Below are positions 13,061 through 40,433 of a DNA stretch of 64,000 nucleotides, piece after piece. Each line of letters opens with the position of its first letter. Position 1 is the first letter of the stretch. Location: contig NZ_JBGUAY010000003.1 in assembly GCF_041821025.1 (NCBI RefSeq), positions 372,001 to 436,000 of the forward strand. The letters run 5' to 3'. Under the pieces are notes generated by a model. The model did no database searches and was not told where the DNA came from. It saw nothing but the letters and a program-made list of their open reading frames with translations. Source of the DNA: Egicoccus sp. AB-alg6-2 (GTDB taxonomy: Bacteria > Actinomycetota > Nitriliruptoria > Nitriliruptorales > Nitriliruptoraceae). A program made the position numbers and the translations under genes.

Positions 13061-13063
13061 GGC

Positions 13064-14005
13064 TCACCCTCCCTCGTAGTACACCCAGCGCTTGCTGGTG
13101 ACGACCTGCACGACCGTGACGATGCCGATGACCACGAACAGCAGCCAGGCGAGCGCGGAGGCGTAGCCCATGTTGAAGAACTGGAACGCCTGCTGGAACA
13201 GGTAGATCACGTAGAACAGGGCGGCCTGCGACCCGGCGCCGGTCGGCTGCTGGCCGAAGAACATCGCATACACCTCGGTGAACAACTGCAGCGAGGCGAT
13301 GGTGTTGATGACGAGCACGAAGAACAGCGCGCCGCTGATCATCGGCACGGTGACCGAACGGAACCGCTGCCAGGGGCCGGCACCGTCGACCAGCGCCGCC
13401 TCGTAGAGGCCCGCCGGCACGTTGCGCAGCGCCGCGAACAGGATGATGACGGTGGTACCCACGCTCCACAGCATCATCATGATGATGCCCGGCTTGACCC
13501 AGGTGGGGTCGTTGAGCCAACTGGGGCCGGGAAGGCCGAGCGCCCGCAGACCCTGGTTGACCAGGCCGTTGTGGCCGTTGAGCAGGAGCAGGAACAGCGC
13601 CCCGACCGCGACGGCGGGGGCGACGTTGGGGACGTAGAACGCGGTGCGGAAGAACCCGCCGGCCCGGCCGACGCGGTTGAGCATCATCGCCAGTCCGAGG
13701 CCGCTGAGCAGGGTCCCGGGGACGTAGAAGACCGTGAAGTAGAGCGTGTTCCAGAGGCTGATGCGCACCCGTGGGTCGGCGATGGCCCGCTGGTAGTTCT
13801 CCATCCCGAGGAACTGGGTGTCGGGAACCAGTGGGTCGTAGTTGGTCAGCGACAGCCACAGGCTCCAGAGCATCGGCCCGATCATGAAGACCACGAAGCC
13901 GATGAGCCAGGGGGAGAGGAAGACGAACGCCCAGATGGTCTGACGTCGTTTGTGGGTCATCTTCGACCCGCCACGACCCTCGTCCACCTCTGTGCGAGCG
14001 TCCAT
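13064..14005 (-). CDS. Carbohydrate ABC transporter permease (MalF type)
   Basis: Protein of 313 aa with six membrane helices; the first begins at about residue 25. The EAA loop is YEAALVDGAGPWQRFRSVTVP near residue 205. N-terminal residues FLSPWLIGFVVFMIGPMLWS are typical of the UgpA/MalF-like CUT1 subunit. The ATG at 14005 is preceded by a strong GGGGGAGG ribosome site. The gene lies 33 bases after the binding-protein gene. With the MalG-type partner it forms the translocation pore for an oligosaccharide. Confidence 0.92.
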   Translation of the reverse strand: MDARTEVDEGRGGSKMTHKRRQTIWAFVFLSPWLIGFVVFMIGPMLWSLWLSLTNYDPLVPDTQFLGMENYQRAIADPRVRISLWNTLYFTVFYVPGTLLSGLGLAMMLNRVGRAGGFFRTAFYVPNVAPAVAVGALFLLLLNGHNGLVNQGLRALGLPGPSWLNDPTWVKPGIIMMMLWSVGTTVIILFAALRNVPAGLYEAALVDGAGPWQRFRSVTVPMISGALFFVLVINTIASLQLFTEVYAMFFGQQPTGAGSQAALFYVIYLFQQAFQFFNMGYASALAWLLFVVIGIVTVVQVVTSKRWVYYEGG

Positions 14006-14038
14006 TTCCTCCCCCTCTCCCCCGGGCAGATTACGCGC

Positions 14039-15469
14039 TCATCGGGCCGCGTCGATGGCCGCCTGGGCCTCCTGCTGGGCGGTCGCCATGGCCGACGCCG
14101 GGTCGGCGCCGGTCAGCACCGCGTTGACCGCGTCCTCCCACGCCGCCTTGAAGGCCGCGGAGGCGGGCGACGGCGGCAGGCCGAACGCGTTCTCCTGGTT
14201 CTCGACCACCGTCTGGACCGCCTGCTCGAACGACGGCATGTCCGACAGGTCGACGATCTCGCTGAAGATCACGTCGTCGGCCTCACGGTTGCCGGTGTAG
14301 ACACCGGTGTTGGGTGCGCCCTCCTCGGCGCGGGTGTCCGCACGGGCCTGCGCGGCCTCGATCCAGGTGTCGGCCTCGGTCATGGTCTTGGCGAAGGTGC
14401 ACGCCGCCTCGGGGTTCTGTGCCGAGGCCGTGACGGCCCAGCTGTTGCCGTCCGCCCACGTGATCGGCTGCCCGTCGGGACCCTCGAAGGGACGCACGGT
14501 GACCTCGGCGTCCGGCGAGGAGCCGGCGAGCACGTTGAGGTACCACTGCTCCATCGGCATGCCGCCGAGCTGGTCTGCCGCGTACTGGTTGTCGCCGCCG
14601 AAGAAGTCCCAGGTGTCACGGAAGTCGAGGAACGTGGTGCGGCCGCCGGCCGGCTCGTGGAAGGGCACCGTGAGCTCGAGCGCCTCGATGACACCCGGGT
14701 CGTCGAGGTTGGCCTCGAGGCCGTCCTCGCTGATCATCGGCGCGCCGTTGGCCCAGGCCCACAGGGGCAGGAACTCGGGCAGCTTGGGGTCGAGGCCGAT
14801 TCGTTCCAGCCGGCCGCCCTCGTTGCGTGTGAGCTGCTCGTTGACCTCGGCCAGCGCCTCCCAGTCGGAGAGGTCGACGGTCTCGGGGTCGAGTCCGGCG
14901 TCCTCGAACGCCGCGTTGTTCAGGATCCAGACGCGGGAGTTGAAGAACTCCGGGAACGCGTACACGGTGCCGTCGACCGTCACCTGGTTGATCGCACCGT
15001 CGTAGTAGACACTGGTGTCGACGTCGTGCTGCGCGATGCACTCGTCGAGCGGAGCGAGCACGCCGCGGGCGATGTAGGTCCCGATCTCGTTGCGCGGGAT
15101 GTTGACGAGGTCCGGCGGATCGTCGCTGGCCAGCGCCGACAGGAACCCCTGCTCGTCGAACCCGCTCTCGCTGAATTCGAGGTTGACGTCGGGGTACAGC
15201 TCGCGGAAGCGGTCGACACGGACCTGGGCGATCTGGTCGCCGGTCTCGTAGCCGAAGCCGAAGGCGAACAGGTCGCCGCTGACGTCGCCGGCCGCCGCGT
15301 CGCCGTCGGTGGTCTCACCGTCGGTCTCGCCGCCGTTGCCGTCGTCGCCGCTGTCGATGACATCGTTGTCATCCGGGGCCGCAGTACCATCGCCATCGTC
15401 GGAGCCACATGCCGCTCCGAGGACCGCGATGGCGAAGATCAGGGACAGAAACCGTGAACGCCTCGCCAT
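14039..15469 (-). CDS. Extracellular sugar-binding lipoprotein of an ABC importer
   Basis: Protein of 476 aa. The start is a lipoprotein signal peptide, MARRSRFLSLIFAIAVLGAAC, with lipobox LGAAC and the lipidated Cys21. A very acidic Asp/Gly/Thr-rich linker follows (about residues 22-65), then a class I (MalE-like) binding protein fold with many Trp/Tyr residues suited to sugar stacking. The frame is open eleven codons further upstream, but the ATG at 15469 has GAGGG close before it and starts the signal peptide properly. It is the first gene of the importer operon. The C-terminus (PASAMATAQQEAQAAID) is the usual end of this family. Ligand is unknown. Confidence 0.92.
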   Translation of the reverse strand: MARRSRFLSLIFAIAVLGAACGSDDGDGTAAPDDNDVIDSGDDGNGGETDGETTDGDAAAGDVSGDLFAFGFGYETGDQIAQVRVDRFRELYPDVNLEFSESGFDEQGFLSALASDDPPDLVNIPRNEIGTYIARGVLAPLDECIAQHDVDTSVYYDGAINQVTVDGTVYAFPEFFNSRVWILNNAAFEDAGLDPETVDLSDWEALAEVNEQLTRNEGGRLERIGLDPKLPEFLPLWAWANGAPMISEDGLEANLDDPGVIEALELTVPFHEPAGGRTTFLDFRDTWDFFGGDNQYAADQLGGMPMEQWYLNVLAGSSPDAEVTVRPFEGPDGQPITWADGNSWAVTASAQNPEAACTFAKTMTEADTWIEAAQARADTRAEEGAPNTGVYTGNREADDVIFSEIVDLSDMPSFEQAVQTVVENQENAFGLPPSPASAAFKAAWEDAVNAVLTGADPASAMATAQQEAQAAIDAAR

Positions 15470-15630
15470 GACACCCTCTTTCGAAGATTGCGGTCTCCCC
15501 ATTCGCTCTCCCGCGAGGGGACGACCGTCGCCGAACCCTACCCGCGCAACGACCGTTGTGGTAGACCCCTTGTCGGATCGGTGGCGGTGACCCCCGCGAC
15601 GCTGCCGCCGCGACGTCCGGAGTACCCCTC
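15470..15630. promoter_or_regulatory. divergent promoter region, importer operon / racemase-like gene
   Basis: 160 bases between two divergent genes. It contains the inverted repeat CAACG-AC-CGTTG at 15547-15558, a possible operator half as strong as the LacI palindromes at 29211 and 41886. No exact copy of those palindromes is present, so importer control may be separate. Confidence 0.35.
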
Positions 15631-16293
15631 TTGGCCCCCACGATCGCCCTGGTCCACACCGTCCCGGCCCTGGCCGAGCACTTCGAGGCCCTGCTCGCCC
15701 AGCGTCTGCCGGATGCCCACCTGCACCACGCCGTGCACGAGCAGTTGCTGCAGCGCACGATCTCGGACGGCCACCTCTCCGAGGCGACCGCGCACGAGTT
15801 GGCCGAGGTCGTCGGCGACGTCGGGGCGGGGGCCGACCTGGTGCTGGTCACCTGCTCGACGCTCGGTCCCGCAGTGGACGCGCTCGCCGGTGGCGACGGG
15901 CCCCGGGTGGTCCGCGTCGACGAGGCGATGGGCCGCGAGGCGCTGCGACTGGGCGGACGGATCGGGGTCCTGGCGACGCTCACCAGCACCCTCGAGCCGA
16001 CGGTAGGGCTGCTGGAGCGTCTCGCCGCCGAGGAGGGGCAGGACGTCGAGGTGGTGGCACAGCTGTGCGAGGGCGCCTTCGAGGCCGTCCGCGAGGGGGA
16101 CGGCGAACGTCACGACGAACTCGTGCGTGCCGGCCTCGACCGACTGCTGGACCACGACGTCGAGGTGGTGGTGCTGGCCCAGGCCTCGATGGCCCGGGTG
16201 CTGGACACGCTCGACGAGCCGCCCTCCGTCCCGGTGTTGTCGAGCCCCGAACTCGCTGCCGACCACGTGGCGTCAGTCGTCGCCGGGTCCTAG
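15631..16293 (+). CDS. Asp/Glu/hydantoin racemase-superfamily protein with one catalytic Cys missing
   Basis: Protein of 220 aa starting at TTG with GGAG eight bases upstream. The two-domain racemase fold is suggested by LVLVTCSTLGPAVD (first catalytic Cys, about residue 73) and by GGRIGVLATLTSTLEPTV. The second catalytic position reads VLAQASMARVLD, with Ala where racemases have Cys, so a standard two-base racemization is unlikely. One-Cys relatives catalyse decarboxylation or isomerisation. It is the only plus-strand gene in this part and is divergent from the importer operon. Its last 21 bases overlap the end of the convergent isomerase gene. A role in handling a chiral sugar acid is only a guess. 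Confidence 0.75.
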   Translation: MAPTIALVHTVPALAEHFEALLAQRLPDAHLHHAVHEQLLQRTISDGHLSEATAHELAEVVGDVGAGADLVLVTCSTLGPAVDALAGGDGPRVVRVDEAMGREALRLGGRIGVLATLTSTLEPTVGLLERLAAEEGQDVEVVAQLCEGAFEAVREGDGERHDELVRAGLDRLLDHDVEVVVLAQASMARVLDTLDEPPSVPVLSSPELAADHVASVVAGS

Positions 16294-17091
16294 CGCCGAC
16301 AGGTCGGTCACCACGCCCGACCGCAACGCGCGCGGCAACCAGTCGAGCGCACCGTGCGTTTCGACCGAGGGGACGTACTCGAGCGCGACGGCCCCGGTGT
16401 AGCCGGAGGTCGCGAGCTGCCGGAGCAGCGCGAACAGCGGTGCCGCACCGGTCCCCGGCTCGCCCCTGCCCGGGGTGTCCGCCAGCTGGACGTGGGCCAC
16501 GAGCTCGGCGACCGAGCGGTACGCGTCGAGCAGGTCCGGTTCGACCCGCGCCACGTGGTAGGCGTCGAACTGCAGCCGCAGTCCCGGATCGTCGAACGCG
16601 CGAACCAGCGCCGCCGCCGGCGCCAGGCGCGTGAAGAGGTAGTCGGCGACGTCGTGGTGGTTGAGCACCTCGATCAGCAACCGGATGCCGCTGCCGCGCG
16701 CGCGCGACAACGCCCAGGCGAGGTTGGTCTCGAGGGTTCGCTGCTGCACGGCGGGCGGGACGCCTCCGACGGCACGTCCGGCGAGCACGTTGATGACGGG
16801 GCATCCGAGGTCGGTCGCCAACTGCAGGGCCTCGTCGAGGGCACGGCGGAACGCCTCGATCCGCTGCGGGTCGTTGGCGTAGCCCCGGTCGCCTGCGGAC
16901 AGGTCCCCCCCATGGACGTTGAGCAGGACGACGTCGACGCCGGCGGCGGCGACGGCGGCGATCACGTCACGCGGCGGGTGGTCGGGCCAGGGGAACTCGA
17001 CCGCGCCGAAACCGGCCTCGGCCGCCGCCTCGAAGCGGCGCAACCAGGGCTGTTCGGTGAACAGGAACGCGACGTTCGCGGCGAACCTCAT
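16273..17091 (-). CDS. Hydroxypyruvate isomerase family protein (Hyi/OtnI type)
   Basis: TIM-barrel protein of 272 aa. The start MRFAANVAFLFTEQPWLRRF, with EAGFGAVEFPWP after it, is the hallmark of Hyi/OtnI. Metal and catalytic positions appear in LLIEVLNHHDVADYLF (Glu), LQFDAYHVARVE (Asp, His) and VALEYVPS (Glu). OtnI interconverts 2-oxo- and 3-oxo-tetronates; Hyi acts on hydroxypyruvate. Because the preceding gene is an OtnK-type kinase (ATGA overlap at 17088-17091), the OtnI role is favoured. It is the last gene of the long catabolic operon. The open frame upstream of the ATG is a shadow. Confidence 0.85.
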   Translation of the reverse strand: MRFAANVAFLFTEQPWLRRFEAAAEAGFGAVEFPWPDHPPRDVIAAVAAAGVDVVLLNVHGGDLSAGDRGYANDPQRIEAFRRALDEALQLATDLGCPVINVLAGRAVGGVPPAVQQRTLETNLAWALSRARGSGIRLLIEVLNHHDVADYLFTRLAPAAALVRAFDDPGLRLQFDAYHVARVEPDLLDAYRSVAELVAHVQLADTPGRGEPGTGAAPLFALLRQLATSGYTGAVALEYVPSVETHGALDWLPRALRSGVVTDLSALGPGDD

Positions 17092-18395
17092 GCACGCGCC
17101 GCCGGAGGGGCGAGCAGCGCGTCGACCAGGTCCACCAGCAGGCGGTCGTCGCCGACGTTGCCCGGCACGACGAGGCAGCTCATCGACCTGCCGGCACCGG
17201 TGATGACGTCCCATCGGCCCACCCCGGGAGCGACCGGTCCGACGACGTCCGCGGCGAGGGCACCGAGCCCGGCCGCGATGGTCACCGCGGACGTGACGCC
17301 GCCCTTGGTGACCAGGGTCGCGGGTGCGACCGGCAGGGACGCCACCACCCGGGCCATCCGGTCGGCGACCCGCTCCTGGTCCTCGCGACCACCCGGGGCG
17401 GCGATGTCGGGCCGCGGCGTGGCCAGGACCGCGAACCCCGTCGCGGCCAGACGGGCGGCCACCGCCGCCGCGCAGCGTTGCACCTCGCGCAACGAGGGGT
17501 CGACGAGGGCGGCCAGGTCCGGCTCGACCACGGTGTCGGGATGGGCACGGGCGACGGCGGCCAGCTGTCGCGTCGTCGTCGGCACGAACGAGCCGCAGAC
17601 GAGCAGGACACCACCAGGACCAGGAGGCGGCAGTGCGGCGGGACCGTCGGCGGTGGCGCCGCTGAGGATGCCGGCGAGGGTGGGGGCGCAGCGGAGGACG
17701 ACCGGAAGATCTTCGGCGCGGGCGGCCAGAAAGGCGTCCGCGACCGCCCGCAGGTCCTCGACCGTCTCGGCGTCCGTGGCGCACACGGCGGCGCCGCTCG
17801 CAGCCAGACGTCGGAGCCGCTCCAGCACCGCGTCGGTCCCGTCGGCACGCAGGTCGGCGAGCGGGACGTGCAGGCCGTCGGCGGCGGCGAACCGGCCCGC
17901 GGAACGATGCTCCGCCCAGCGCAGCAGGTGCGCGTCGGGGTAGCCGAGCGCGGGATCGCGGGCGTACTCGGTGTCGTGCAGTGGCTGGCGTGCGCCGTCA
18001 CGGGCCAGCAGGTGGACCCCGTCGACGGTGATCCGGCCGGCCTCGGGCAGGGCGGGGGCGAGCAGCAGCACCGGTTCCCGGCCCGGAAACCGGATTTCGC
18101 GGACGGCGTCGTACTCCTCGACGAGGTGGCCGCGAAGGGTGCTGTCGCCGCGCAGGACGTACTCGGCGTCCGGCCAGAACGCAGCCGCCGCCTCGCAGGC
18201 GTCGCGAACCAGGCGTTTCGCGACCTCGGGAGCCGCCGCTCGGCTGTTGGTCATGAGGTGCACGGCCGGCCAGGGTCGCGACGCCGCCGCCTGCAGGACC
18301 TCGCGGTCCAGCCCGAGCAGTACCCGGACGCCGGCCATGGTCTGCGTGCCCGTCGGGTCGTCGTCGACGACCACGAACGGCGTCGTGGCGCTCAC
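17088..18395 (-). CDS. Four-carbon acid sugar kinase family protein (OtnK/DUF1537)
   Basis: Protein of 435 aa. N-terminal signature VVVDDDPTGTQTMAGVRVLL, then YVLRGDSTLRGHL, and in the C-terminal nucleotide domain LLVCGSFVPTTTRQL, LVTKGGVTSA and the ATP loop VITGAGRSMSCLVVPGNVG. Members phosphorylate 3-oxo-tetronate, threonate, erythronate or related acids. The DDDPTGTQ form of the first motif belongs to a sub-branch whose substrates are less well known. GTG start overlaps the GH84 stop (GTGA). With the OtnI-like isomerase downstream and a class II aldolase upstream, a phosphorylated keto-acid or keto-sugar route is likely; the matching OtnC decarboxylase is absent. Confidence 0.85.
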   Translation of the reverse strand: MSATTPFVVVDDDPTGTQTMAGVRVLLGLDREVLQAAASRPWPAVHLMTNSRAAAPEVAKRLVRDACEAAAAFWPDAEYVLRGDSTLRGHLVEEYDAVREIRFPGREPVLLLAPALPEAGRITVDGVHLLARDGARQPLHDTEYARDPALGYPDAHLLRWAEHRSAGRFAAADGLHVPLADLRADGTDAVLERLRRLAASGAAVCATDAETVEDLRAVADAFLAARAEDLPVVLRCAPTLAGILSGATADGPAALPPPGPGGVLLVCGSFVPTTTRQLAAVARAHPDTVVEPDLAALVDPSLREVQRCAAAVAARLAATGFAVLATPRPDIAAPGGREDQERVADRMARVVASLPVAPATLVTKGGVTSAVTIAAGLGALAADVVGPVAPGVGRWDVITGAGRSMSCLVVPGNVGDDRLLVDLVDALLAPPAARA

Positions 18396-19753
18396 GATGC
18401 CATGGCTTCGGCCTGACGGAGGCACCAGCGTGCGAAGACCTCGAGCTGGTCACCCGCGACCCAGTGGAAGCTCGCCCGTGCCCGCTCCAGCGCGTCGAGC
18501 ACCTCCACGGTGCCGGGGGCGTCCCCGGCGCCGGTGTCGACGGCACGACGCAGGACCTCGAGGGCGAGTCGTGCGGCGCGGGACTGGTGGACGAGTTTTG
18601 CGCTCCAGGGGGCGAGGTCGCGACGCAACCGGACGTTGCGGAGCCCGCTCGCGAGGTGGTCGGCCGTCTCCGCGAGTTCGCCCAGCAGCGCGCCGACCTC
18701 GTCCAGGGGTTTCCGCCGGTCGCCGGCCGCGGCCTCGAATCCCGTGATGCAGCGCCGCAGCGGCTCCGCCAGGCGGTTGTCGAGCCGGTAGTCCCCGCGC
18801 CGGAGCGGGGTCCGGCGCGCGAGGTCGGCGAGCGCCGCGACGTCGCGGGCGTCACGCTCGTCTCCGGTCACCTCGTGCAGTGCCGCCCACCAGGCCCGAT
18901 CCGCCTCGTAACCGGCGGGATCGGTCGCGTACGCCATGGCGGTGGCGACCGCGATCAGTGACGCCTCGGGCTGGATCGCCACGTTCGCGAGCAGACCGAG
19001 GGTCTCGGTGCCACCGAGGCGCGGGTCGCGGCCGGTCAGCGCGTTGAGGTGCGGGTCGTGCCGCATCTCGCCGTCGTTGACCGGGTGGTTGTCCCAGTAC
19101 AGCACCGGCCGCCGGAGGCTGGCGGCCACCTGCCGAGTGTGCTCCAGGGTGAGGAATTGCGAGCAGACCTCGGGACCGGTCCACATGATCGGGACGTCGC
19201 GGTCGATCCCGGCGCCGATCTCGCGGACGTAGGCGTCGTCGGGATCCCCGTGGTAGTGCAGCGGGACGAACCAAAGTCGCCGATCGGGGCCGCGCTCGCG
19301 CAGGAAGCTCCGGACCAGGTCGACGAGGTGCACGTGGGCCGCCGCCAGCGTGGAGAAGCGTTCGGCGTCACCGCTGGAGGCGAAGTCCTCGGGCATGTCG
19401 TCGACCAGGAGACAGATCCGGTGCAGCCCGGCATCGTCGGCCGCCGCCAGCTTCGCGCGCAGCGCGGCGACGTCGTCGTCCTCGGTGAGACGCAGGCCGA
19501 GCGGGCTGAGCCCGAACCAGACGTCGACGCCGACCTGGGCGCCGGCCTCGGCCAGTTCGGCGAATCGGCGCCACTCCTCGGCGAGGTAGGGCTCCTGCCA
19601 GCGGTCACGGTGCAGCGGGTCGTTCTTGGGGGCATAGACATAGGTGTTGGCCCCGCAGCCGCCGAGGAACTGCACCATGCGGTGCCGGTCCTCCCAGGTG
19701 TAGGGCCGGCCGTAGAAACCCTCGACGACGCCTCGGACGGCGAGGGCACTCAT
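18392..19753 (-). CDS. GH84 family beta-N-acetylglucosaminidase (O-GlcNAcase-like)
   Basis: Protein of 453 aa. The N-terminal GVVEGFYGRPYTWEDR is the entry motif of GH84, and the catalytic Asp pair is Asp118-Asp119 in ICLLVDDMPEDF. Other conserved parts are NTYVYAPKNDPLHRDRW, IMWTGPEVCSQ and VLYWDNHPVND. The family cleaves terminal beta-GlcNAc by substrate-assisted catalysis. Only the barrel and a helical C-terminal part are present. The long accessory domains and signal peptide of secreted clostridial enzymes are missing, so it should work in the cytoplasm. It overlaps the MBL gene by four bases (ATGA). The open frame extends to 20050 but that part is a shadow. Confidence 0.9.
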   Translation of the reverse strand: MSALAVRGVVEGFYGRPYTWEDRHRMVQFLGGCGANTYVYAPKNDPLHRDRWQEPYLAEEWRRFAELAEAGAQVGVDVWFGLSPLGLRLTEDDDVAALRAKLAAADDAGLHRICLLVDDMPEDFASSGDAERFSTLAAAHVHLVDLVRSFLRERGPDRRLWFVPLHYHGDPDDAYVREIGAGIDRDVPIMWTGPEVCSQFLTLEHTRQVAASLRRPVLYWDNHPVNDGEMRHDPHLNALTGRDPRLGGTETLGLLANVAIQPEASLIAVATAMAYATDPAGYEADRAWWAALHEVTGDERDARDVAALADLARRTPLRRGDYRLDNRLAEPLRRCITGFEAAAGDRRKPLDEVGALLGELAETADHLASGLRNVRLRRDLAPWSAKLVHQSRAARLALEVLRRAVDTGAGDAPGTVEVLDALERARASFHWVAGDQLEVFARWCLRQAEAMAS

Positions 19754-21549
19754 CGGACGTGCACCAGTGCCTCGGCGATCTGGCCGTAGCGGCGGTGGGC
19801 GACGGTCAGGTCGGCGGCGACCACCACGCGTGGGTCCGGCTCGCCCGCCGGGGAGGTCAGCCAGAACCCCGTGAAACCGTGCTCCCCGGGTTCCAGCTCG
19901 AGCTGAGCGCGGGGCGGCTTCACCTGCCAGCCGTCGGGAACGACGAGCGCGACCTCGACCTCCTCGGCCTCGGGCGCCGGGTTGCGGACCTCGACCTCGA
20001 GTTCGAACGACTGTCCGGCGACGATGTCGGTGTGGTACGGGCGCACCCACAGGCCACGACCCTCGGCGTCGAAGTCGGTGTCGTCGAGGGGCAGCAGGTC
20101 GCGGTGCAACCGCTCGAGGTCACGGCCGCGCTCCTTGAGGGTCGTGACGAGCCTGTCGTCACAGGGGATCGCGCCCCAGTGGCCGGTCAGCAGCAGGTCG
20201 GGACGGATGCGTTCGAACAGGTCCGCCGTGACCCGGTAGTCGCTGGCGCTGAAACGATTCTGGTAGACGTAGTTGAGGCGGCCGTGGTCGTCGATCTGGT
20301 CACCGGTGGCCACCACGCGGCGCCCGTCCACCTCGATCTCGATCGCCACGGCGTAGAGCGTGTGCCCCGGCAACGGGTGCAGGACGATCTCGTACTCCTC
20401 CCAGGTCAGCGGCTGCTCGAGGGGCACGACGCGGTCGACCTCGATCGGGTCGTACCACAGGCAGGGAAGGTCGTAGGCGCGGGGACGTTGCAGGACGTCG
20501 ACGAAGTTCTCGGGTCCCCAGACCTCGGTCCCCTCGACGCGGCGCAACAGCTCGAACCCGGCGACGTGGTCGTCGTGGTAGTGGGTCGGGATCGCCACGT
20601 CGATCGAGGTGACGCCGAACTGCCGCTTCAGCGCCGGAACGGTGTACAGCCACGGCCTGCGGGCGGCGCGATCGGTCCCGGCGGGCAGCCCCGCCTCGAA
20701 GTCGTAGCCGAAGTCGACCACGAGGGCCTTGCCGGACTCCGACAGCAGGACGTACGAGCGCGCGTGCGACGAGCGGTTGTAGAGCAGGTGCGGGCTCAGC
20801 GACTCGAACGGCTCGTCGCGGCGGCCGGTGAGCCCGAGGTGCTGGTTGCGCAGGTCGAGCAGCTCGCGGACCCGGGCGGCGGTGTCCTCCAGCGCGGCGA
20901 CGGGATCGTCCATGACGGGGCCGTGCGAGGGCAGCAGCACGTCGGGCGCACGGTCGCGTACGTCCATCAGCGACAGCCACGTCATGGCCAGCCCCTCGGG
21001 GCCGGCGTAGGACCATTGGGTCGCGGCCAGGGACCACACCTTGCCGTGGCCGGCCAGCAGGTCGCCGGTGAAGGCGACGTCGACCCCGTCGACGGTGGCG
21101 AGGAAGCCGACGGAGCCGACCGTGTGCCCCGGCAGCGGGATGGCGGTCACGGTGATCTCGCCGTAGCTGGTGGGGACGTACTCGACGAAGGTCCCGTCGA
21201 TCGGGATCGAGGTGACGAGCGAGAACCGGTCCTCGCGCGTGTTGTAGTTGTTGGCGACGTCGCGCGCGAGCCAGCGCTGTTCGGCACGGTCGAACAGTTC
21301 CTGCTCGGCGTGCGGCACCCAGATCCTGGCGCCGGCGGCCGTGGCGAGCGGCAAGCCCTGCCCCTGGTCACGGTGGTGGTGGGTCATGAGCACGTCGGTG
21401 ACCCGGCTCACCCCGATCTCGGGCAACTCCTGCAACACCGCGCCGGACCCGAAGTCGATCAGCACGGCGTCGGTGCCGGCCCGGATCACGTACACGTTGC
21501 ACGTGTCCTCGAACCGGTACAGGTGTTCGGACAACTGCTGGATCTGCAC
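19750..21549 (-). CDS. Tandem metallo-beta-lactamase-fold protein with C-terminal NEW3-like domain
   Basis: Protein of 599 aa with two MBL folds in one chain. Domain 1 (about 1-240) has H57-x-H59-x-D61 but Gln62 instead of the next metal His, with His142 (PGHT), Asp163 (TGD) and His209 (SHG). Domain 2 (about 265-465) has the full set: THYHDDH at 322-328, His396 (PGHT), Asp417 (TGD), His457 (GHWG). Residues about 500-599 form a beta domain resembling NEW3 (PDGWQVKPP, ELEPGEHGF). No signal peptide is seen. MBL enzymes in sugar loci can be lactonases or other hydrolases, but I do not recognise this architecture. It lies 18 bases after the parvulin-like gene and is coupled to GH84. Confidence 0.8.
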   Translation of the reverse strand: MQIQQLSEHLYRFEDTCNVYVIRAGTDAVLIDFGSGAVLQELPEIGVSRVTDVLMTHHHRDQGQGLPLATAAGARIWVPHAEQELFDRAEQRWLARDVANNYNTREDRFSLVTSIPIDGTFVEYVPTSYGEITVTAIPLPGHTVGSVGFLATVDGVDVAFTGDLLAGHGKVWSLAATQWSYAGPEGLAMTWLSLMDVRDRAPDVLLPSHGPVMDDPVAALEDTAARVRELLDLRNQHLGLTGRRDEPFESLSPHLLYNRSSHARSYVLLSESGKALVVDFGYDFEAGLPAGTDRAARRPWLYTVPALKRQFGVTSIDVAIPTHYHDDHVAGFELLRRVEGTEVWGPENFVDVLQRPRAYDLPCLWYDPIEVDRVVPLEQPLTWEEYEIVLHPLPGHTLYAVAIEIEVDGRRVVATGDQIDDHGRLNYVYQNRFSASDYRVTADLFERIRPDLLLTGHWGAIPCDDRLVTTLKERGRDLERLHRDLLPLDDTDFDAEGRGLWVRPYHTDIVAGQSFELEVEVRNPAPEAEEVEVALVVPDGWQVKPPRAQLELEPGEHGFTGFWLTSPAGEPDPRVVVAADLTVAHRRYGQIAEALVHVR

Positions 21550-21567
21550 GAGATTCCCTTGTACTGC

Positions 21568-22392
21568 TCAGTGACGGTGCATGCGCTCGGGCACGCGTGG
21601 GTCCCCCGGGTGTTCGCTTCCCGGCATCAGCCGGACGTCGCGCCGACGCCGTTGCGCCAGCCATTGGTCGAAGCGTCGGCCGCGCTTCGCAGCCCACAAG
21701 TCCGAAGCGATCGCTTCGCTGACCTCCGCCAGCGGTGTCGTCCGTCGCGGACGCACGCGCAGCAGCTCGGCGACGAGCCAGCCCAGCGGTCCGGCCAACG
21801 GCCCGACCACGTCGCCGGCGGCGGCGCCGAAGACGGCGGACTCGGTGGCGGCCCCCCGCTGGCCTCTGATCACGTCGTGGTGTTCGACCACGGCCCCGGG
21901 GACGGCTGCCCCGGCCTCGCGCAGCCCGACCTCGTGGGCGTGTGCCGCCAGCCGGGCCGCGCATCCGTGATCGGCGAGGACGACCTGCGCGAGGGTACGG
22001 GTCTCGGCGCGCACGAAGCGGTCGAGGTTGCGTCGGTAGTGCGACTCGATCTCGTCCTCGGTGACCGCGACGTCGGCCGTGACCGTCTCGAAGACCCGGC
22101 GCACCACGTCGGGGGCGAGCGGCGCCGCCGGGTCGGTGCGACGCGGCGTCCCCGAGCTGGCGGCCTCCGCCTCGACGATCGCCTCCTCGACCAGGGTGTG
22201 GACGAGCCAACGGCGCAGGCGGCGTGCCTCGGGGCTGCCCGGGGCGGGCAGGTTGGACGCGCCGGCCTCGATGCCGACGAGGAGCTCGCGTGCGTCGACG
22301 TCGCGTCCGGTCAGCACGAGATCACCGACGACGGCCACCACCGCGGCGGCGCTCGCGTCCCGATGGGCCCGGGGACTCGTGGTCGGACTCAC
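21568..22392 (-). CDS. Cytoplasmic parvulin (PpiC)-like peptidyl-prolyl isomerase domain protein
   Basis: Protein of 274 aa. A helical N-terminal part resembling SurA/PrsA chaperone regions (about 20-120) ends in VTEDEIESHYRRNLDRFVR. A short parvulin-like domain follows: ETRTLAQVVLADHGCA ... ATESAVFGAAAGDVVGPL ... GPLGWLVAELLRVRP. Typical parvulins of this kind are exported, but no signal peptide or lipobox is visible here. The ATG overlaps the stop of the GH38 gene (ATGA at 22389-22392), so it is made together with a 1459-residue enzyme. It may assist folding of this enzyme, or the fold may have been recruited for another task. The active-site Cys/His pattern of parvulins is not clear. Confidence 0.65.
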   Translation of the reverse strand: MSPTTSPRAHRDASAAAVVAVVGDLVLTGRDVDARELLVGIEAGASNLPAPGSPEARRLRRWLVHTLVEEAIVEAEAASSGTPRRTDPAAPLAPDVVRRVFETVTADVAVTEDEIESHYRRNLDRFVRAETRTLAQVVLADHGCAARLAAHAHEVGLREAGAAVPGAVVEHHDVIRGQRGAATESAVFGAAAGDVVGPLAGPLGWLVAELLRVRPRRTTPLAEVSEAIASDLWAAKRGRRFDQWLAQRRRRDVRLMPGSEHPGDPRVPERMHRH

Positions 22393-25300
22393 CGGTCCCC
22401 CGCTTCGTCGCCCTCACGCGGGCCGAACACGACCGGGACGCTGCGCGTGTAGAGCACGCGCCCGAAGTACATGACCTTGACCAACGCCCAGGACGTGACG
22501 CCGGACGCTCCGACGGGGCACGTCAGCGTGAAGCGCACGGTGGAGCGCCCACCCCCCGCGACCGCGAACCCGGTGGTCCACGGCCCCAGTTCGTCCCAGG
22601 TCCCCCATGGACTCACGACCTGCACCTCGCCGCGGACGTCGCCCGCGACGTGGTTGTGCAGGTCGACGAGGAGTTCGCCGGGGTGACCCTCGGTGGCGTG
22701 CACCCGCTCGGTCAGCACCTCGGCGGTCAGTTCACCGCCGATGGCCGCGACCCGGTCCACGTCGGTGGGCTGCTCGACGATCGCCGCCTTGCGCGTGGAC
22801 CGTTCCAGGTAGAGCACCCGGGCTTGCCCGTCCGCGGGTGCACGAGACCGGTGCCCCAGATCGACCGTGAGCACGTCCTCGTGGACCTGGCCGGCGTCGT
22901 CCCCGATTCGTGCGGCGACGAACCAGCGGCCGGGAGCGGCGTGCGCGGCCGGCTCGACCCGGACGCGGAAGACGTCGTGGGCGCCGGGCGCGAGGTGGAA
23001 GGAACGCTGCGGAGGGGACGCCTCCCAGCCGTCGGGCGGTCGCAGCTCGACCATGCCGGCGACCTCGGCGTCCGTGCGCTGGGACGCGACGACGACGTCG
23101 AGTTCGAACGGCCCGTCGGCGAGGACGGCACGGTCGACGATGCGGACCGTCACCGGTTGGTAGCCGATCGGGGCCGCGCCCTTGTTGTGGAGCCAGTAGT
23201 CACCGAACACCGGCTGCGCCGGTTCCCGGCGGCGCCCGAGTTGCGGGCCGGACGCGGCCGGCAGCGGGTCCGTCGCGAGCCGGAAGGTGGCGATCTCGTA
23301 GGGTGAGAAGTCGTGGACGAGCGCGCCGTCCACCACCTCGGCGCCGGTCAGCGGTACCTCGAGCAGGTCGGCGGTCTGCGCCGAACGGATCGGCCGGAAC
23401 AGCGCGACCGAGGCGCGTCCCCCGCGACCGTTGGACTCGTAGGCCCGCACCGTGATGGCGTGCGTCGGGTCCATCCGTGGATCGGCCATGACCGCCATGG
23501 GATTGCCGGCCGGCTTCAGGGTCGTCACGACGACGTCGTCGCCCTCGACCAGCAGGAAGGCCTGCGCGGCCGGCAACCCACCGTCGTGGACGCCGGTGGT
23601 GCGCGCCAGCAGCGGCTCGTTGTGCTGGGCGGCGGCGCGAACGAGACCGAGATCGCGCCAGTCACCGGCACCGGCCGCGATGGCGTACTCGAAGCGGTGC
23701 GTCCAGTGCTGGAACTGGAAGCTGGAGCCGTCGGGAACCGTGCGGCGTGGTGGATCGAGCCACACACCGGACGGCCACCCGCTGCACGAGCGCATCAGTG
23801 ACAGGTACAAGCTGCCGTCGACGTCGACGTTGCAACCGGGCAGGCCCCGGTTGACGACGACGACGGTCCGGTCGGCGGCCGTCCCCTCGTCGGCGTGGAG
23901 GGCGGCCGGCTGGGGCACCGTGACGCGGGCGGTCCCGGCGAGCTGCGTCGTCACCTCGGCCAGTTCGAGGTGGGTGGCCCGTGGGTCGACGCCGGCGACG
24001 ACCAGCACCGGCAGGTCACGGACGCCGCGCAGGTCGGCGTCGGGCGACCAGACCTCCCGCAGCGGGGTGGCGGCCGGCACCCAGAGCCGGGCACGGCCAC
24101 GGTCGTGGAGTTGCTGCTTCAGCCGGGCCGCGTAGGCCGGGTCGGCGGCGGCCAGCAGCTGCGCGACGAAGGCGTTGTCCTGTGGACCCCCGACGGCGAA
24201 TCGCACGTCGGGCAGGTTGGAGTCGGTGTCCATGCTCCCGTAGCGCGGCCCGTCGCCGCGCGAGACCGTGGACGTGACGCCGCGACGGACCAGCGCCACG
24301 ACCAGGTCGCGGACGCCCTCGGACTGCCCGTCGTGGTCGGGAGCGACGACCTCGGCGACGGCGATCGCGCGCGACGCCGGCGGGGCGTCGTCGTCGACGA
24401 GGTCGACCGCGGCGGTCGTCCCGACGCCGAACCAGTTGTACGCGGGGTTGTCCAGCGTGTACGGGCTGTCCGCCACGTCGATGGCGGGGAAGCCGGCTCC
24501 TCGTCCGACGACGGCGTTGCCCACCTCGGACAACGGCAGACCGCCCGGCACGTCGGCGGCCACCCGCATGCGCAGCAGCACGTCCTGGTCGGCGAAGCCG
24601 TCGAGGTCGGTGCGGCAGCACAACCGGTCGACGCCGGGGTGGAGCGTCATGGTCTGCACGAGGTCGCAGCCGGCGATCCCGCCCCGGACGACCAGGCGTT
24701 GCCCGACCGCGCTGTGCTCGCGGACGACCTGGGCCGGGCGCTCGGAGCTCGCCGTGACCTCGCCGGTCGGCGTCAGGTGCCAGGGCCCCTCGCCGTGTTC
24801 GGGATGGGTGGGGTACTCGCGGTACGCCAGGATCTCGTTGGCCAGCCCTTGCGGGCGCAGGACCTCGGTGCCGTCGCGCAGGTCGCGGAGCGAGCTGATC
24901 GCACCGCCACGTCGCGGGTCGACGGTGACCTGCAGCACGTCGTTGGTGATGACCAGGCCGTCGTCGCGCGACCACTGGGCGTCTGGCGGCAGATCGGGTG
25001 CCGGCACCAGACGGTAGGTCCGGTAGCCGAGCGACGGCACGGCGTCGGCCAGCAGGGTGAGCGTGCAGGCGCGCAGGTGCCCGTCCGAGGACCGGTCGAT
25101 CGCCTCGACGACGAACGGCACGTCTTCGCCGGCGTCGTCGAGCACCCGCAGCCCGCGCGCCGGCCGGTGCAGGGACACCCGGGCGGTGACCGGGTCCCTC
25201 CGCGTCCACCCGAGCGGGTTGAAGACGACCAGTGGCTGCCCCTCGCCGCGCGTGTCGATGCAGGAGCCGATGTGGTCGAGCGCGTCGTCGAGCGCCTCAC

Positions 25301-26768
25301 CGGCCAGCTCGTAGGTGTCGCGCCATCCCCCCAGCAGGTCGAGGTAGACCTGGTCGGACTCGGTGCCCGTGATCCCGTCGTGGTGGGCGCCGTACAGCAG
25401 TTGCCGCCACGCCTTGTCCAGCGCCTCGGCCGGATAGCGGGCGCCCAGCAGTGCGGCGACGGTGCCGAAGCGCTCGGCGGCCAGAACGCGGTTCTCCCCG
25501 GCTCGCTGCGCCTGCTTGGTGTCGATGTAGGACACGTCCTTGCCGGTGTAGATCGGGTTCATGTCGCGGGTCTGGGGGCTCGGGCCGACGCCCGACGCCA
25601 ACTCCTGGCGGACCGCGGCGAAGAACTCGCGCGGCAGCGCGACCTGGAACCGGGGCCACACGTACCGCGCGTTCCATGCCCTGGCGATCTCGGTCATCCA
25701 GCGGTTGGGTGGCGTGTAGTCCGAGCCGACGGGCAGCAGCACGTTGCGGGTGGCCGCCACCTGCGCGAGTTCGCGGAAGAGCCGGTCGGCCTCGTCCATC
25801 GCGTGTTCGAGGTCGGTGGCGTGGTCGAGCTCCCAGCCGGCGGAGTAGTGGTTGGCCATGTAGCTGGTCAACAGCCCGACGCCGCTGGGCGCGACCCAGT
25901 CGAACTCGCTGGAGAACTGCATCGAGGCATTGCCACCGGGCGAGCGCGACGGGCCCCACTGGTGGAACGGGCCGCGCGCGCACGAACTGGAGGTCAGCCC
26001 GGCCGCGGCCATCATGCCCGGGAACTGCGGGTCGTGACCGAACGCGTCCAACTGCCACGCCGACCCTGGATCGCCCCCGAGCACGTCGCGTTGGTAGCCG
26101 ATGCCGTACACCGCGTTGCGGGCGGTGCTCTCGGCGCTGGTCAGGTTGGTGTTCGGTTCGTTGTAGGTACCACCCATCAGCTCGAGGCGTCCGTCGGCCA
26201 GCAACTGCCGCAGTTCGTCACGGCGCCAGGGGAAGGTGTCCCAGTACGGCTTGAGGTAGTCCAGTTCGGCGAGCACGAAGCGGTAGTCGGGGTCGCGGCG
26301 GGCCATGTCGAGGTGGGCGTCGATCAGGGTGAACGCCGGCTGCTGGCGACGGCCCTCCCACGGTCGTTCCTCGCGGGGGAGCTTCTCCCACGTCTCGGTG
26401 TAGAAGGCCTGCGTGTTCCACCACACCGGGTCGTAGTGGAAGTGCGCCACCATGAACATGCGCCAGCCCGGTTCGGCGACCTCGAACGCCAGCGGCAGCT
26501 CGGGCCGTTGGTCGTCGCCGCCGGCCTCGAGGATGACGGTCGCGTCCGCGCGGTGGCCCGCCGACAGGCCGGCGCCGACGGTGACCGGGACCTCGACCGC
26601 CTGCTCGCCACCGTCGGCGAGGGTGACGGCCGCGGCGCCGGTCACCCCGTCGCCGCGCACACGGACGGTGCCCGTGCCGCGCCCGGCGAGGCGGACCCGC
26701 ACGACCTGGCGCGGTCCGTCGTCGGAGGCGACGAACCGCGGCAGCGTGGTGGCGTCGAGCAGTCTCAT
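22389..26768 (-). CDS. GH38 family alpha-mannosidase, large, with C-terminal NEW3 and Ig-like domains
   Basis: Protein of 1459 aa. An extra beta domain (1-100) precedes the GH38 barrel. Zinc ligands His111 and Asp113 lie in VAHFHYDPVWWN, the nucleophile Asp241 in WQLDAFGHDPQF, and a further zinc His in LLYGAHHDGITGTE, the form found in Golgi mannosidase II-like enzymes. A long beta-rich C-terminal half follows. A NEW3-like module (about 1195-1302, with RPPDGWEASPPQ) and a last Ig-like domain (about 1335-1450) end the protein. No signal peptide is present. It is coupled by ATGA to the FGGY kinase upstream and the parvulin-like gene downstream. Substrate linkage cannot be read from sequence. 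Confidence 0.9.
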   Translation of the reverse strand: MRLLDATTLPRFVASDDGPRQVVRVRLAGRGTGTVRVRGDGVTGAAAVTLADGGEQAVEVPVTVGAGLSAGHRADATVILEAGGDDQRPELPLAFEVAEPGWRMFMVAHFHYDPVWWNTQAFYTETWEKLPREERPWEGRRQQPAFTLIDAHLDMARRDPDYRFVLAELDYLKPYWDTFPWRRDELRQLLADGRLELMGGTYNEPNTNLTSAESTARNAVYGIGYQRDVLGGDPGSAWQLDAFGHDPQFPGMMAAAGLTSSSCARGPFHQWGPSRSPGGNASMQFSSEFDWVAPSGVGLLTSYMANHYSAGWELDHATDLEHAMDEADRLFRELAQVAATRNVLLPVGSDYTPPNRWMTEIARAWNARYVWPRFQVALPREFFAAVRQELASGVGPSPQTRDMNPIYTGKDVSYIDTKQAQRAGENRVLAAERFGTVAALLGARYPAEALDKAWRQLLYGAHHDGITGTESDQVYLDLLGGWRDTYELAGEALDDALDHIGSCIDTRGEGQPLVVFNPLGWTRRDPVTARVSLHRPARGLRVLDDAGEDVPFVVEAIDRSSDGHLRACTLTLLADAVPSLGYRTYRLVPAPDLPPDAQWSRDDGLVITNDVLQVTVDPRRGGAISSLRDLRDGTEVLRPQGLANEILAYREYPTHPEHGEGPWHLTPTGEVTASSERPAQVVREHSAVGQRLVVRGGIAGCDLVQTMTLHPGVDRLCCRTDLDGFADQDVLLRMRVAADVPGGLPLSEVGNAVVGRGAGFPAIDVADSPYTLDNPAYNWFGVGTTAAVDLVDDDAPPASRAIAVAEVVAPDHDGQSEGVRDLVVALVRRGVTSTVSRGDGPRYGSMDTDSNLPDVRFAVGGPQDNAFVAQLLAAADPAYAARLKQQLHDRGRARLWVPAATPLREVWSPDADLRGVRDLPVLVVAGVDPRATHLELAEVTTQLAGTARVTVPQPAALHADEGTAADRTVVVVNRGLPGCNVDVDGSLYLSLMRSCSGWPSGVWLDPPRRTVPDGSSFQFQHWTHRFEYAIAAGAGDWRDLGLVRAAAQHNEPLLARTTGVHDGGLPAAQAFLLVEGDDVVVTTLKPAGNPMAVMADPRMDPTHAITVRAYESNGRGGRASVALFRPIRSAQTADLLEVPLTGAEVVDGALVHDFSPYEIATFRLATDPLPAASGPQLGRRREPAQPVFGDYWLHNKGAAPIGYQPVTVRIVDRAVLADGPFELDVVVASQRTDAEVAGMVELRPPDGWEASPPQRSFHLAPGAHDVFRVRVEPAAHAAPGRWFVAARIGDDAGQVHEDVLTVDLGHRSRAPADGQARVLYLERSTRKAAIVEQPTDVDRVAAIGGELTAEVLTERVHATEGHPGELLVDLHNHVAGDVRGEVQVVSPWGTWDELGPWTTGFAVAGGGRSTVRFTLTCPVGASGVTSWALVKVMYFGRVLYTRSVPVVFGPREGDEAGDR

Positions 26769-28123
26769 GATCGGCCTTCCGGCCCGGCGCTCCCGCCCCG
26801 TGGCCGCAGCGCCGCGGCGTCCGCGACGTCGACGCCGGCGGCCACCGCGGCGAACAGTGCGGCGCCCCGTGCGGCCGCCTGGGAGACCGGTCGGTGCTCG
26901 AGTCCGGGGAGGTGCCGTTGGCGGGCTTCGGCGACCAGTGCGTCGCGGCTCGAGCCGCCGGTGGTGATCACCCGCCGTGCCGGACCGGTCAACTCGATCA
27001 GCGTGGCATGGCGCTCGGCCGCCTTCGCCGCGATGCTCTCGACCGCGGCGCGCCACATCTGTCCGGCCGACGCGGCGTCGGGCGGCGGCCCGGTCACCGT
27101 CAGCTCGTCGATCCACTGGTCGAGTCGTTCGGCGTCGACGGGCGGTGCCGACGGCGACCCGAGCCACGCGTTGCGGTCGGCGCCCCGTGGATCGGCGAAC
27201 CCCAGCAACGCGGCGAGGCGACGCAGGCGCGCGCCGGACGGGAAGCCGCCGATCAGGGCCAGCTGCCCGGCGACGACGTGACGGCCGGTGGTGAAGCCCA
27301 ACGCCGCCGCCCACCGTCGCCGAGGGCGCGGAAGCGGCGGGGCCACGGCGCGCAGCAGCACCTCGGCGCTGCCGCAGGAGTCGACGACGTCGTCGGCGGT
27401 GACGGCGCCGACGCCCACGGCGGCGCAGAGGTGGTCGTGACCCGCGACGGTCAGCGCGGCCCCCTCGAGCCCGGGGATGCCGTCGACGACGCCGAGCGGA
27501 CTGCCCGCGGTTCGCAGCGGCGGGAGGAAGGTGGCGTCCACGCCCGACCAGGCGAGCGCATCCGGCCACCAGTCGAGGCGCTCGACGTCGAGCCAGCCGG
27601 TCCGCGACGCGAGCGAGGGTTCGGCCACCCGCTCGCCACCGAGGAGGTGGACGACGTACTCGGCGACGTTCGACCAGCCGACGGAGCGGGCGAGGGCAGG
27701 GTCGGTGTCGACCAGCCAACGGTGCTTGACGAGGCTCGGCTTGGCCGAGACGGGAAGGCCGGTCATGGCCGTGAAGTCCGGGAGGTCCTCGGCCAGGCTC
27801 GGGACCAGTTCGGCGGCGCGTGCGTCACCCCAGGTCAGGGCAGGAGCGAGCGCCGCCCCGTCGACGTCCAGCAGGAAGCCCGCCTCGGCCATGCTCGCGA
27901 CGCCGATCCCCACGATCGGACCCCCGATGCCGTACTGGGCGGCCGCGCACGTCTCGAGCGTCGTCGCCAGCAGGTCGCGCGCATCCAGGGTCGGCGAGCG
28001 GGACGTCGTCGACCAGGGGGTCGGACGTTCGGCGCCGCCGTACTCGGCACCGTCGGCCCCCAGCACCACCGCCTTGCAGCTGCTGGTGCCGATGTCGATG
28101 CCGAGCAGGAAACCGTCGGTCAC
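26765..28123 (-). CDS. FGGY-family carbohydrate kinase
   Basis: Protein of 452 aa. The phosphate-1 motif is FLLGIDIGTSSCKAVVLGADG and the adenosine region includes VITTGGSSRDALVAEARQ. Middle motifs are AGHDHLCAAVGVGAV and SCGSAEVLLRAV. The SGQMHG signature of xylulokinases is absent, so the substrate is another sugar or sugar alcohol. I chose the GTG at 28123 because an AGGT stands before it and the protein then begins at the kinase core. It follows lacI by 46 bases and overlaps the large GH38 gene. A second FGGY kinase of xylulokinase type lies at 42031. Confidence 0.85.
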   Translation of the reverse strand: MTDGFLLGIDIGTSSCKAVVLGADGAEYGGAERPTPWSTTSRSPTLDARDLLATTLETCAAAQYGIGGPIVGIGVASMAEAGFLLDVDGAALAPALTWGDARAAELVPSLAEDLPDFTAMTGLPVSAKPSLVKHRWLVDTDPALARSVGWSNVAEYVVHLLGGERVAEPSLASRTGWLDVERLDWWPDALAWSGVDATFLPPLRTAGSPLGVVDGIPGLEGAALTVAGHDHLCAAVGVGAVTADDVVDSCGSAEVLLRAVAPPLPRPRRRWAAALGFTTGRHVVAGQLALIGGFPSGARLRRLAALLGFADPRGADRNAWLGSPSAPPVDAERLDQWIDELTVTGPPPDAASAGQMWRAAVESIAAKAAERHATLIELTGPARRVITTGGSSRDALVAEARQRHLPGLEHRPVSQAAARGAALFAAVAAGVDVADAAALRPRGGSAGPEGRS

Positions 28124-28169
28124 CGCGTGACCTGGCACGTGACGGCAACGGAAGGACGCCGGGCCGCCG

Positions 28170-29198: not shown

Positions 29199-29210
29199 GT
29201 GGGAACCTGG

Positions 29211-29222
29211 GACAACGTTGTC
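29211..29222. promoter_or_regulatory. LacI-type operator upstream of lacI
   Basis: Perfect 12-base palindrome GACAACGTTGTC with central CG, the usual form of LacI-family sites. It lies in the 92-base gap between aldolase stop and lacI start. The same 12 bases occur at 41886-41897. Confidence 0.7.
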
Positions 29223-29290
29223 AACACGATCGATCCCCGCCGGTCCCATCCTGCCAGCTTCTGGGCCGGCAGCGCCACTTCCCGGCCGAC

Positions 29291-39048: not shown

Positions 39049-39056
<8 letters not shown>
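36603..39056 (-). CDS. GH38 family alpha-mannosidase (817 aa)
   Basis: Zinc ligands His13 and Asp15 lie in LIGHAHIDPVWLWQW, the nucleophile Asp125 in GFNPDSFGHHAMLPQ, and the later zinc His in NVLFNQFHDILPGT. These forms belong to the cytosolic/lysosomal-like bacterial branch (HIDxxWLW), different from the second GH38 in the same operon. The C-terminal beta domains are of normal length; no signal peptide is seen. The ATG overlaps the GH1 stop by eight bases. Two unlike GH38 enzymes in one operon suggest different alpha-mannosyl linkages or different oligosaccharide sizes. Confidence 0.93.
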
Positions 39057-40425
<1,369 letters not shown>

Positions 40426-40433
40426 GGGGTTCC

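Follow-up and report, generated by a model that had tools for sequence, protein, structure and literature searches.

Results

Layout of the tandem metallo-beta-lactamase protein

The window analysed here, a stretch of 64,000 nucleotides from Egicoccus sp. AB-alg6-2 (contig NZ_JBGUAY010000003.1, positions 372,001 to 436,000), contains a gene for a protein of 599 aa in which two metallo-beta-lactamase (MBL) domains in tandem are followed by a C-terminal beta-sandwich; the gene is set among genes for glycosidases, a sugar importer and sugar kinases (Table 1). The gene begins with GTG, and the AAGGGA just upstream is, judging by its sequence, a good ribosome-binding site. No signal peptide was apparent in the protein on inspection by eye.

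A preliminary description of this DNA, made from the letters alone, had proposed the tandem MBL layout and suggested that it be checked by a profile search of each domain and by structure prediction. Both procedures supported it. Pfam assigned Lactamase_B to residues 15–209 (E = 1.4e-24, above the cut-off), Lactamase_B_2 to residues 305–417 (E = 5e-8) and, weakly, NPCBM_assoc/NEW3 to the tail. The two halves aligned with each other over 217 columns with an hhalign probability of 99%, indicating that the tandem duplication is real. The AlphaFold2 model obtained with 78 homologues was confident (predicted local distance difference test 94.5, predicted template modelling score 0.91) and showed two MBL domains followed by a beta-sandwich at residues 500–598. 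Membership in the MBL superfamily thus follows from the complete ligand set of domain 2, the Lactamase_B match and a predicted fold that matches known MBLs.

The NEW3-like nature of the tail, and its kinship with a module in the large glycoside hydrolase family 38 (GH38) protein of the same operon, had been suggested as well and agree with the data. The NPCBM_assoc/NEW3 model (PF10633) matched residues 511–569 with E = 9e-5 and 23.0 bits, just under the gathering cut-off of 24.4; the tail shared 39% identity over 57 aa with residues 1212–1268 of the large GH38; and the model has the expected beta-sandwich. Compared with PF10633 domains, the tail is likewise a C-terminal beta-sandwich, but it is attached to an MBL rather than to a glycosidase and scores under the cut-off. 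It is also the variable part of the protein, with a mean pairwise identity of 40% versus 55% for domain 1 and 59% for domain 2, and the NEW3 model reached E ≤ 1e-3 in only 14 of 78 homologues. We rejected a recent module exchange with the GH38 of the operon, because one homologue (L068) has the tail although its operon GH38 shows no NEW3 match. The tail is therefore taken to be an old part of the tandem-MBL family.

Conservation of the two metal sites

A dinuclear zinc site with a bridging hydroxide is established for the MBL superfamily. The full metal set that the preliminary description had listed for domain 2 is present (H323, H325, D327, H328, H396, D417 and H457). All of these except H396 were kept in every family member covered, including those at 27–33% identity; in one fragment, the non-ligand D326 was replaced by N. 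H396 is His in the main clade, including Deinococcus, and Gln in most sister clades. In haloarchaea (Haladaptatus, for example) and rhizobia, domain 2 carries H396Q and domain 1 is intact. In addition, Arg294, Arg297 and Arg298, located in the loop before the HxHxDH strand of domain 2, were invariant in the 78-member alignment, although Arg297 was not retained in rhizobial relatives and Arg294 was not in one Deinococcus.

Domain 1 does not have the canonical HxHxDH motif but HHHRDQ, and it was correctly described as carrying Gln62 at the fourth ligand position with the other ligands kept (H57, H59, D61, H142, D163 and H209). HHHRDQ was invariant in the first 83 sequences that we collected. Because this set had been gathered partly with the peptide MTHHHRDQ as bait, the invariance of Gln62 in it was set aside as circular, and whole-protein profile searches that do not depend on the motif were used instead, covering 297 Paenibacillaceae, 250 Microbacteriaceae and 249 Chloroflexota-class genomes. 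Among the orthologues with at least 38% identity in these searches, HHHRDQ, H142, D163 and H209 were kept throughout the aligned regions; an incomplete fragment, L144, aligns no further than the domain 1 motif. The only departure concerned a non-ligand: the orthologue L137 has Tyr in place of His58, and His58 was rejected as an extra catalytic residue on that account.

Relatives at 27–33% identity were split. HHHRDQ is retained by some Chloroflexota, haloarchaea and rhizobia. It is replaced by QHRRPN in one Chloroflexota clade and by NHHRDV in a Paenibacillus paralogue, where H142 is also changed to Asp. Inside the main clade, Deinococcus proteins at 42–44% identity have HHHRDV and have lost H142 and D163. 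The maximum-likelihood tree has well-supported branches that require domain 1 ligands to have been lost on no fewer than three occasions (in Deinococcus, the Chloroflexota clade and the Paenibacillus paralogue); the position of the long-branched paralogue is uncertain. The repeated loss, together with HHHRDQ in distant relatives, suggests that Gln62 is most simply ancestral for the tandem-MBL family and that the surrounding metal site can be dispensed with. The earlier statement that the first site is altered in this protein therefore does not hold, since HHHRDQ appears to be the ancestral signature of the family, present even in relatives as distant as haloarchaea. Going by these alignments, a Gln-type first site that was lost repeatedly is the better wording.

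Against the three independent losses in domain 1 stand none in the core of domain 2. This contrast is our main argument that domain 2 probably carries the essential chemistry in the clade found in glycan operons, and it likewise backs the accessory role that had been considered for domain 1. Since the Deinococcus proteins that lack these domain 1 ligands are also encoded in this type of operon, the pathway can apparently operate with no metal site in domain 1.

Distribution of the family

Full-length homologues with 46–61% identity were found in Actinomycetota, Bacillota, Chloroflexota and one Pseudomonadota, which excludes chance; more distant relatives occur in Deinococcus, haloarchaea and rhizobia. 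In the tree, the nearest relatives of the window protein were Egibacteraceae and Euzebyaceae sequences, an Egibacteraceae orthologue being 61% identical. Cultured bacteria that carry the gene include Neobacillus, Cohnella and Microbacterium. The gene has a patchy distribution: of 296 genomes sampled from the whole phylum one carried it, and the three genomes sampled from the same genus lacked it. In haloarchaea and rhizobia the relatives have acid-catabolism genes rather than glycan genes as neighbours, which makes the family wider than glycan operons. One haloarchaeal relative sits among acid-sugar-type genes including an SMP-30 lactonase, and a distant relative at 27% identity (L156) adjoins a sulfatase gene. 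A 32% identical relative in Sinorhizobium terangae (L162) is beside genes resembling those of L-carnitine catabolism (carnitine dehydrogenase, thioesterase and BKACE). Among viral fold matches and phage DNA, no relative worth following was found; a giant-virus protein annotated as MBL fold (Hyperionvirus, BFVD A0A3G5AD66) aligned over 554 columns at 13% identity and may be a tandem MBL.

The preliminary description knew of no enzyme with this architecture in a glycan locus. The literature searched, mostly without subscription journals, yielded no described enzyme of this layout, and the searchable papers contained nothing relevant on tandem MBLs in glycan loci or on an alpha-mannosidase together with a tetronate kinase. 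We conclude that the tandem-MBL family is genuine and conserved, that the searchable papers contain no characterisation of it, and that it is a variant within the MBL superfamily.

Gene neighbourhood

Reading along the minus strand, genes for GH1, GH38, GH2, a 662-aa protein, a GH31/36-like protein, an aldolase, a LacI-type regulator, an FGGY kinase, the GH38 with the NEW3 module, a PPIC-type isomerase, the MBL protein and GH84 follow one another, and the run continues after GH84 with the OtnK-like kinase, the Hyi/OtnI-like isomerase, the solute-binding protein, two permeases and an oxidoreductase. The MBL stop and the GH84 start overlap as ATGA. This tight same-strand packing of glycosidase, importer and acid-sugar kinase/aldolase genes confirms the placement of the MBL gene in a glycan operon.

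Table 1. Positions of the MBL gene, its parts and its neighbours in the window
Feature	Position	Strand	Remarks
FAD (flavin adenine dinucleotide)-dependent oxidoreductase (PF12831)	10602..12128	minus	recurrent in related loci
ABC sugar importer: two permeases and solute-binding protein	12125..15502	minus	
Asp/Glu racemase-like	15631..16293	plus	conserved neighbour on opposite strand
Hydroxypyruvate/2-oxo-tetronate isomerase-like (Hyi/OtnI)	16273..17092	minus	start approximate
Four-carbon acid-sugar kinase-like (DUF1537/OtnK-like)	17088..18425	minus	
GH84 beta-N-acetylglucosaminidase-like	18392..19753	minus	only GH84 of the genome
Tandem MBL-fold protein, 599 aa	19750..21549	minus	open reading frame call, Pfam, AlphaFold model; GTG start
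C-terminal beta-sandwich, NEW3/NPCBM_assoc-like, residues 491-599	19753..20079	minus	Pfam, model, GH38 likeness
MBL domain 2, residues 246-490, proposed catalytic	20080..20814	minus	Pfam Lactamase_B_2; ligand conservation
Domain 2 motif H323-x-H325-D326-D327-H328	20566..20583	minus	sequence, alignments
MBL domain 1, residues 1-245	20815..21549	minus	Pfam Lactamase_B 15-209; aligns with domain 2
Domain 1 motif H57-H58-H59-R60-D61-Q62; further ligands H142, D163, H209	21364..21381	minus	sequence, alignments
AAGGGA, ribosome-binding-site-like, just upstream of MBL GTG	21555..21560	minus	read directly
PPIC-type peptidyl-prolyl isomerase	21568..22392	minus	immediately upstream of MBL
Large GH38 with NEW3 module	22389..26780	minus	start approximate
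FGGY sugar kinase	26765..28195	minus	
LacI-type regulator	28170..29294	minus	
Class II fructose-bisphosphate (FBP)/tagatose-type aldolase	29291..30180	minus	start approximate
GH31/GH36-like glycosidase, 617 aa, no Pfam match	30196..32049	minus	profile search, Foldseek
Protein of 662 aa inside operon, no Pfam match	32049..34037	minus	
GH2-type glycosidase	34027..36519	minus	
Second GH38, canonical short form of related loci	36603..39056	minus	
GH1 glycosidase	39049..41130	minus	start approximate

Neighbours were counted within about 10 kb of the MBL gene in 81 loci. GH38 was the most frequent (59/81), followed by ROK (46), GH31/36-like (41), FGGY (31), SIS (31), GH84 (27), racemase-like (27) and OtnK (19) genes; an FGGY or ROK kinase was present in 59 of the 81 loci. 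Because ten carrier genomes of 3.7–7.7 Mb contain 2–16 GH38 genes each, the proximity of GH38 and MBL is not expected by chance. In the 3.7-Mb genome studied here, both GH38 genes and the sole GH84 lie within 20 kb of the MBL gene. Deinococcus plasmids carry almost the same gene set in one operon (GH38, Asp/Glu racemase, FBP aldolase, GH84, OtnC and OtnK). The PPIC-type isomerase is also found upstream of the MBL gene in Egibacteraceae (L014) and, apparently by its sequence, in Euzebyaceae (L015), and is possibly a dedicated foldase for the MBL protein.

Further features of individual neighbours were noted. The 617-aa GH31/36-like protein matched GH31 alpha-galactosidases in a profile search (E = 5e-9) and has conserved KxD and DxDxW motifs; Foldseek placed a Flavonifractor alpha-galactosaminidase nearest (14% identity), along with other GH31/GH36 folds. 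The racemase-like protein has no relative of known structure by sequence. OtnK-like proteins of four related loci (L019, L021, L027 and L049) are 592–625 aa long compared with the usual length of about 430 aa and are perhaps OtnK–OtnC fusions. In two stand-alone Paenibacillus copies (L030 and L035), the MBL gene directly follows a gene resembling a 2-oxoglutarate-dependent prolyl hydroxylase by sequence. A SIS-domain protein of related loci (L056:7970-8626) is close to the phosphoheptose isomerase GmhA, with the aligned catalytic Glu and His kept. SIS, ROK kinase and GH38 together could point to the use of mannose or manno-heptose in those loci; a heptose pathway is attractive for the actinobacterial and Bacillus loci but was not preferred, as SIS and ROK genes were not found near the MBL gene in the window and mannose would fit equally.

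Comparison with known enzymes

The best Foldseek matches of the model were subclass B3 MBLs (L1, BJP-1 and FEZ-1), with E = 2.4e-12 and TM 0.66 on the target for L1. They share with the window protein the MBL fold and the HxHxDH site of domain 2. In contrast, the window protein has tandem domains, a glyoxalase II-type bridging Asp417, only 13–22% identity to B3 enzymes, a glycan operon as its context and, unlike B3 enzymes, no apparent signal peptide. Within B3, the B3-RQK enzymes (SPR-1, CSR-1 and SER-1; PDB 6dqh and 6nc5) have Gln at position 121, the fourth of the motif, as domain 1 has at Gln62. They also carry Arg118 and Lys263, whereas domain 1 keeps His at both positions (H59 and H209), retains the bridging Asp163 and is part of a tandem protein. 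Domain 1 thus has one of the three B3-RQK residues rather than all three together. In the available portions of two reports, Gln121 with Lys263 and Arg118 weakens metal binding, the share of Gln alone not being separated there, and putting back both beta-site His residues restores it (PMC7381538, PMC10318434). By analogy, it is plausible that domain 1 binds a single metal or binds metal weakly.

Long-form tRNase Z (ELAC2 and yeast Trz1) is also a tandem MBL that arose by duplication; its metal site is in the C-terminal half only, and its active site lies in a channel between the halves (PMC11649783). In the window family, the N-terminal half is metal-competent in most members by its ligands and only sometimes lost: the window protein keeps all domain 1 ligands except at Gln62, and three groups of relatives have lost them. 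The family also differs in its bacterial and archaeal catabolic setting without a tRNA context. By sequence, the PDB entries closest to domain 1 were MBL-fold lactonases and organophosphorus hydrolases (4le6, 4o98, MPH and AidB; E = 2.3e-8 for 4le6 in the profile search), which are single-domain enzymes, unlike the tandem window protein with its Gln62. Domain 2 resembled the PhnP and RNase Z models weakly. All NCBIfam scores were far below their cut-offs, including those of the RNase Z models, PhnP (37 versus 272), the AidB-type acyl-homoserine lactonase equivalog (44.7 versus 360 bits), bla_subclass_B3 (52.5 versus 240 bits) and the B3 core model (55.4 versus 100).

Discussion

We consider, with a probability of roughly one half, that the protein is an intracellular member of a widespread tandem-MBL family in which domain 2 is the catalytic dinuclear hydrolase and domain 1 is accessory. 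In domain 2, Zn1 would be bound by H323, H325 and H396 and Zn2 by D327, H328 and H457, with D417 bridging, and the metal-bound hydroxide would cleave a bond of the acyl or ester type. Domain 1 has an intact Zn1 triad (H57, H59 and H142), and with Gln62 replacing His in the Zn2 site it should hold a second metal weakly or not at all; like the metal-free half of long-form tRNase Z, it would most likely shape the active-site cleft or stabilise the protein. The tail may serve as a structural or sugar-contacting beta-sandwich. In the proposed pathway, the ABC importer would take up an oligosaccharide, GH38, GH84 and their partners would trim it, and the MBL protein would, as our best guess, hydrolyse a lactone or ester of a hydroxy-acid or sugar derivative, delivering a hydroxy-acid or unmodified sugar to the neighbouring kinases. 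A lactone or ester is favoured, on weak grounds, because the nearest PDB sequences of domain 1 belong to the lactonase/organophosphatase group, acid-sugar enzymes form part of the pathway, and genes for relatives are found within acid-catabolism clusters. A tetronolactone as the specific substrate, considered because OtnK and OtnC occur nearby, was not favoured, since most actinobacterial loci keep the MBL gene without OtnK.

Some observations weigh against this reading. The dehydrogenase expected to make the lactone was not identified, and in the haloarchaeal case the lactonase could be the product of the adjacent SMP-30 gene. For seven MBL copies (Paenibacillus and one Anaerolineae) all the operon genes are missing from the vicinity, so that the substrate need not be operon-specific. 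In addition, most orthologues show no change in the domain 1 ligands, an argument that the site has some function there.

This last point leads to the possible, though doubtful, alternative that both domains are catalytic, with domain 1 as a mononuclear or Gln-assisted dinuclear site that handles a second bond or step, the step having been lost in Deinococcus and the other lineages. Haloarchaea, rhizobia and the orthologues of at least 38% identity, apart from those of Deinococcus, retain every ligand of domain 1, Asp163 and His209 included; the conservation of domain 1 falls little short of that of domain 2; B3-Q and B3-RQK enzymes show that Gln variants can be active; and the H396Q relatives have an intact domain 1. 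The unequal tally of ligand losses, one of them inside the same operon type, argues for domain 2 instead. The arginines before the HxHxDH strand raise another, unlikely, alternative: they might bind the anion of a charged glycan substituent, making the protein a phosphodiesterase or a phosphomonoester or sulfate-ester hydrolase, in line with the weak likeness of domain 2 to PhnP and RNase Z and with the sulfatase gene next to L156. However, those models scored far too low, the Arg cluster would suit a carboxylate equally and is incomplete in some relatives, and a sulfatase neighbour in one relative of 27% identity does not suffice to favour sulfates.

We regard it as quite improbable that the protein acts on an amino sugar as an amidase or deacylase, for instance by taking an acyl group off a hexosaminide and so preparing the substrate for GH84 or the GH31/36-like enzyme. 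Such a role would suit the overlap of the MBL gene with the only GH84 gene of the genome, the action of the Flavonifractor alpha-galactosaminidase on a deacetylated sugar and the cleavage of amides by B3 MBLs, the nearest fold; yet many loci have the MBL gene without GH84, and a fold match at 14% identity does not fix the substrate. A beta-lactamase or other antibiotic-resistance enzyme is hardly credible: the B3 matches among PDB folds reflect a common fold, the B3 family scores are low and the gene context is sugar catabolism.

The preferred reading of a catalytic domain 2 with an accessory domain 1 can be extended, tentatively and with more doubt than confidence, to a new family of carbohydrate-active zinc hydrolases. 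In it, domain 2 would act on an ester, lactone or acyl group not yet described and remove it within a GH38/GH84 pathway conserved in four bacterial phyla, and the Gln-substituted domain 1 would sense metal or substrate and tune domain 2.

The operon setting is the catabolism of a mannose-containing sugar chain. We found no described substrate for this operon, which recurs in Actinomycetota, Bacillota, Chloroflexota and Deinococcota, and naming the reaction of the MBL protein would probably unlock the pathway. The family also forms a natural series of tandem MBLs, with domain 1 metal-competent or metal-dead and with His or Gln at one ligand of domain 2, so that the role of duplicated, partly decayed metal sites is directly testable in a bacterial enzyme.

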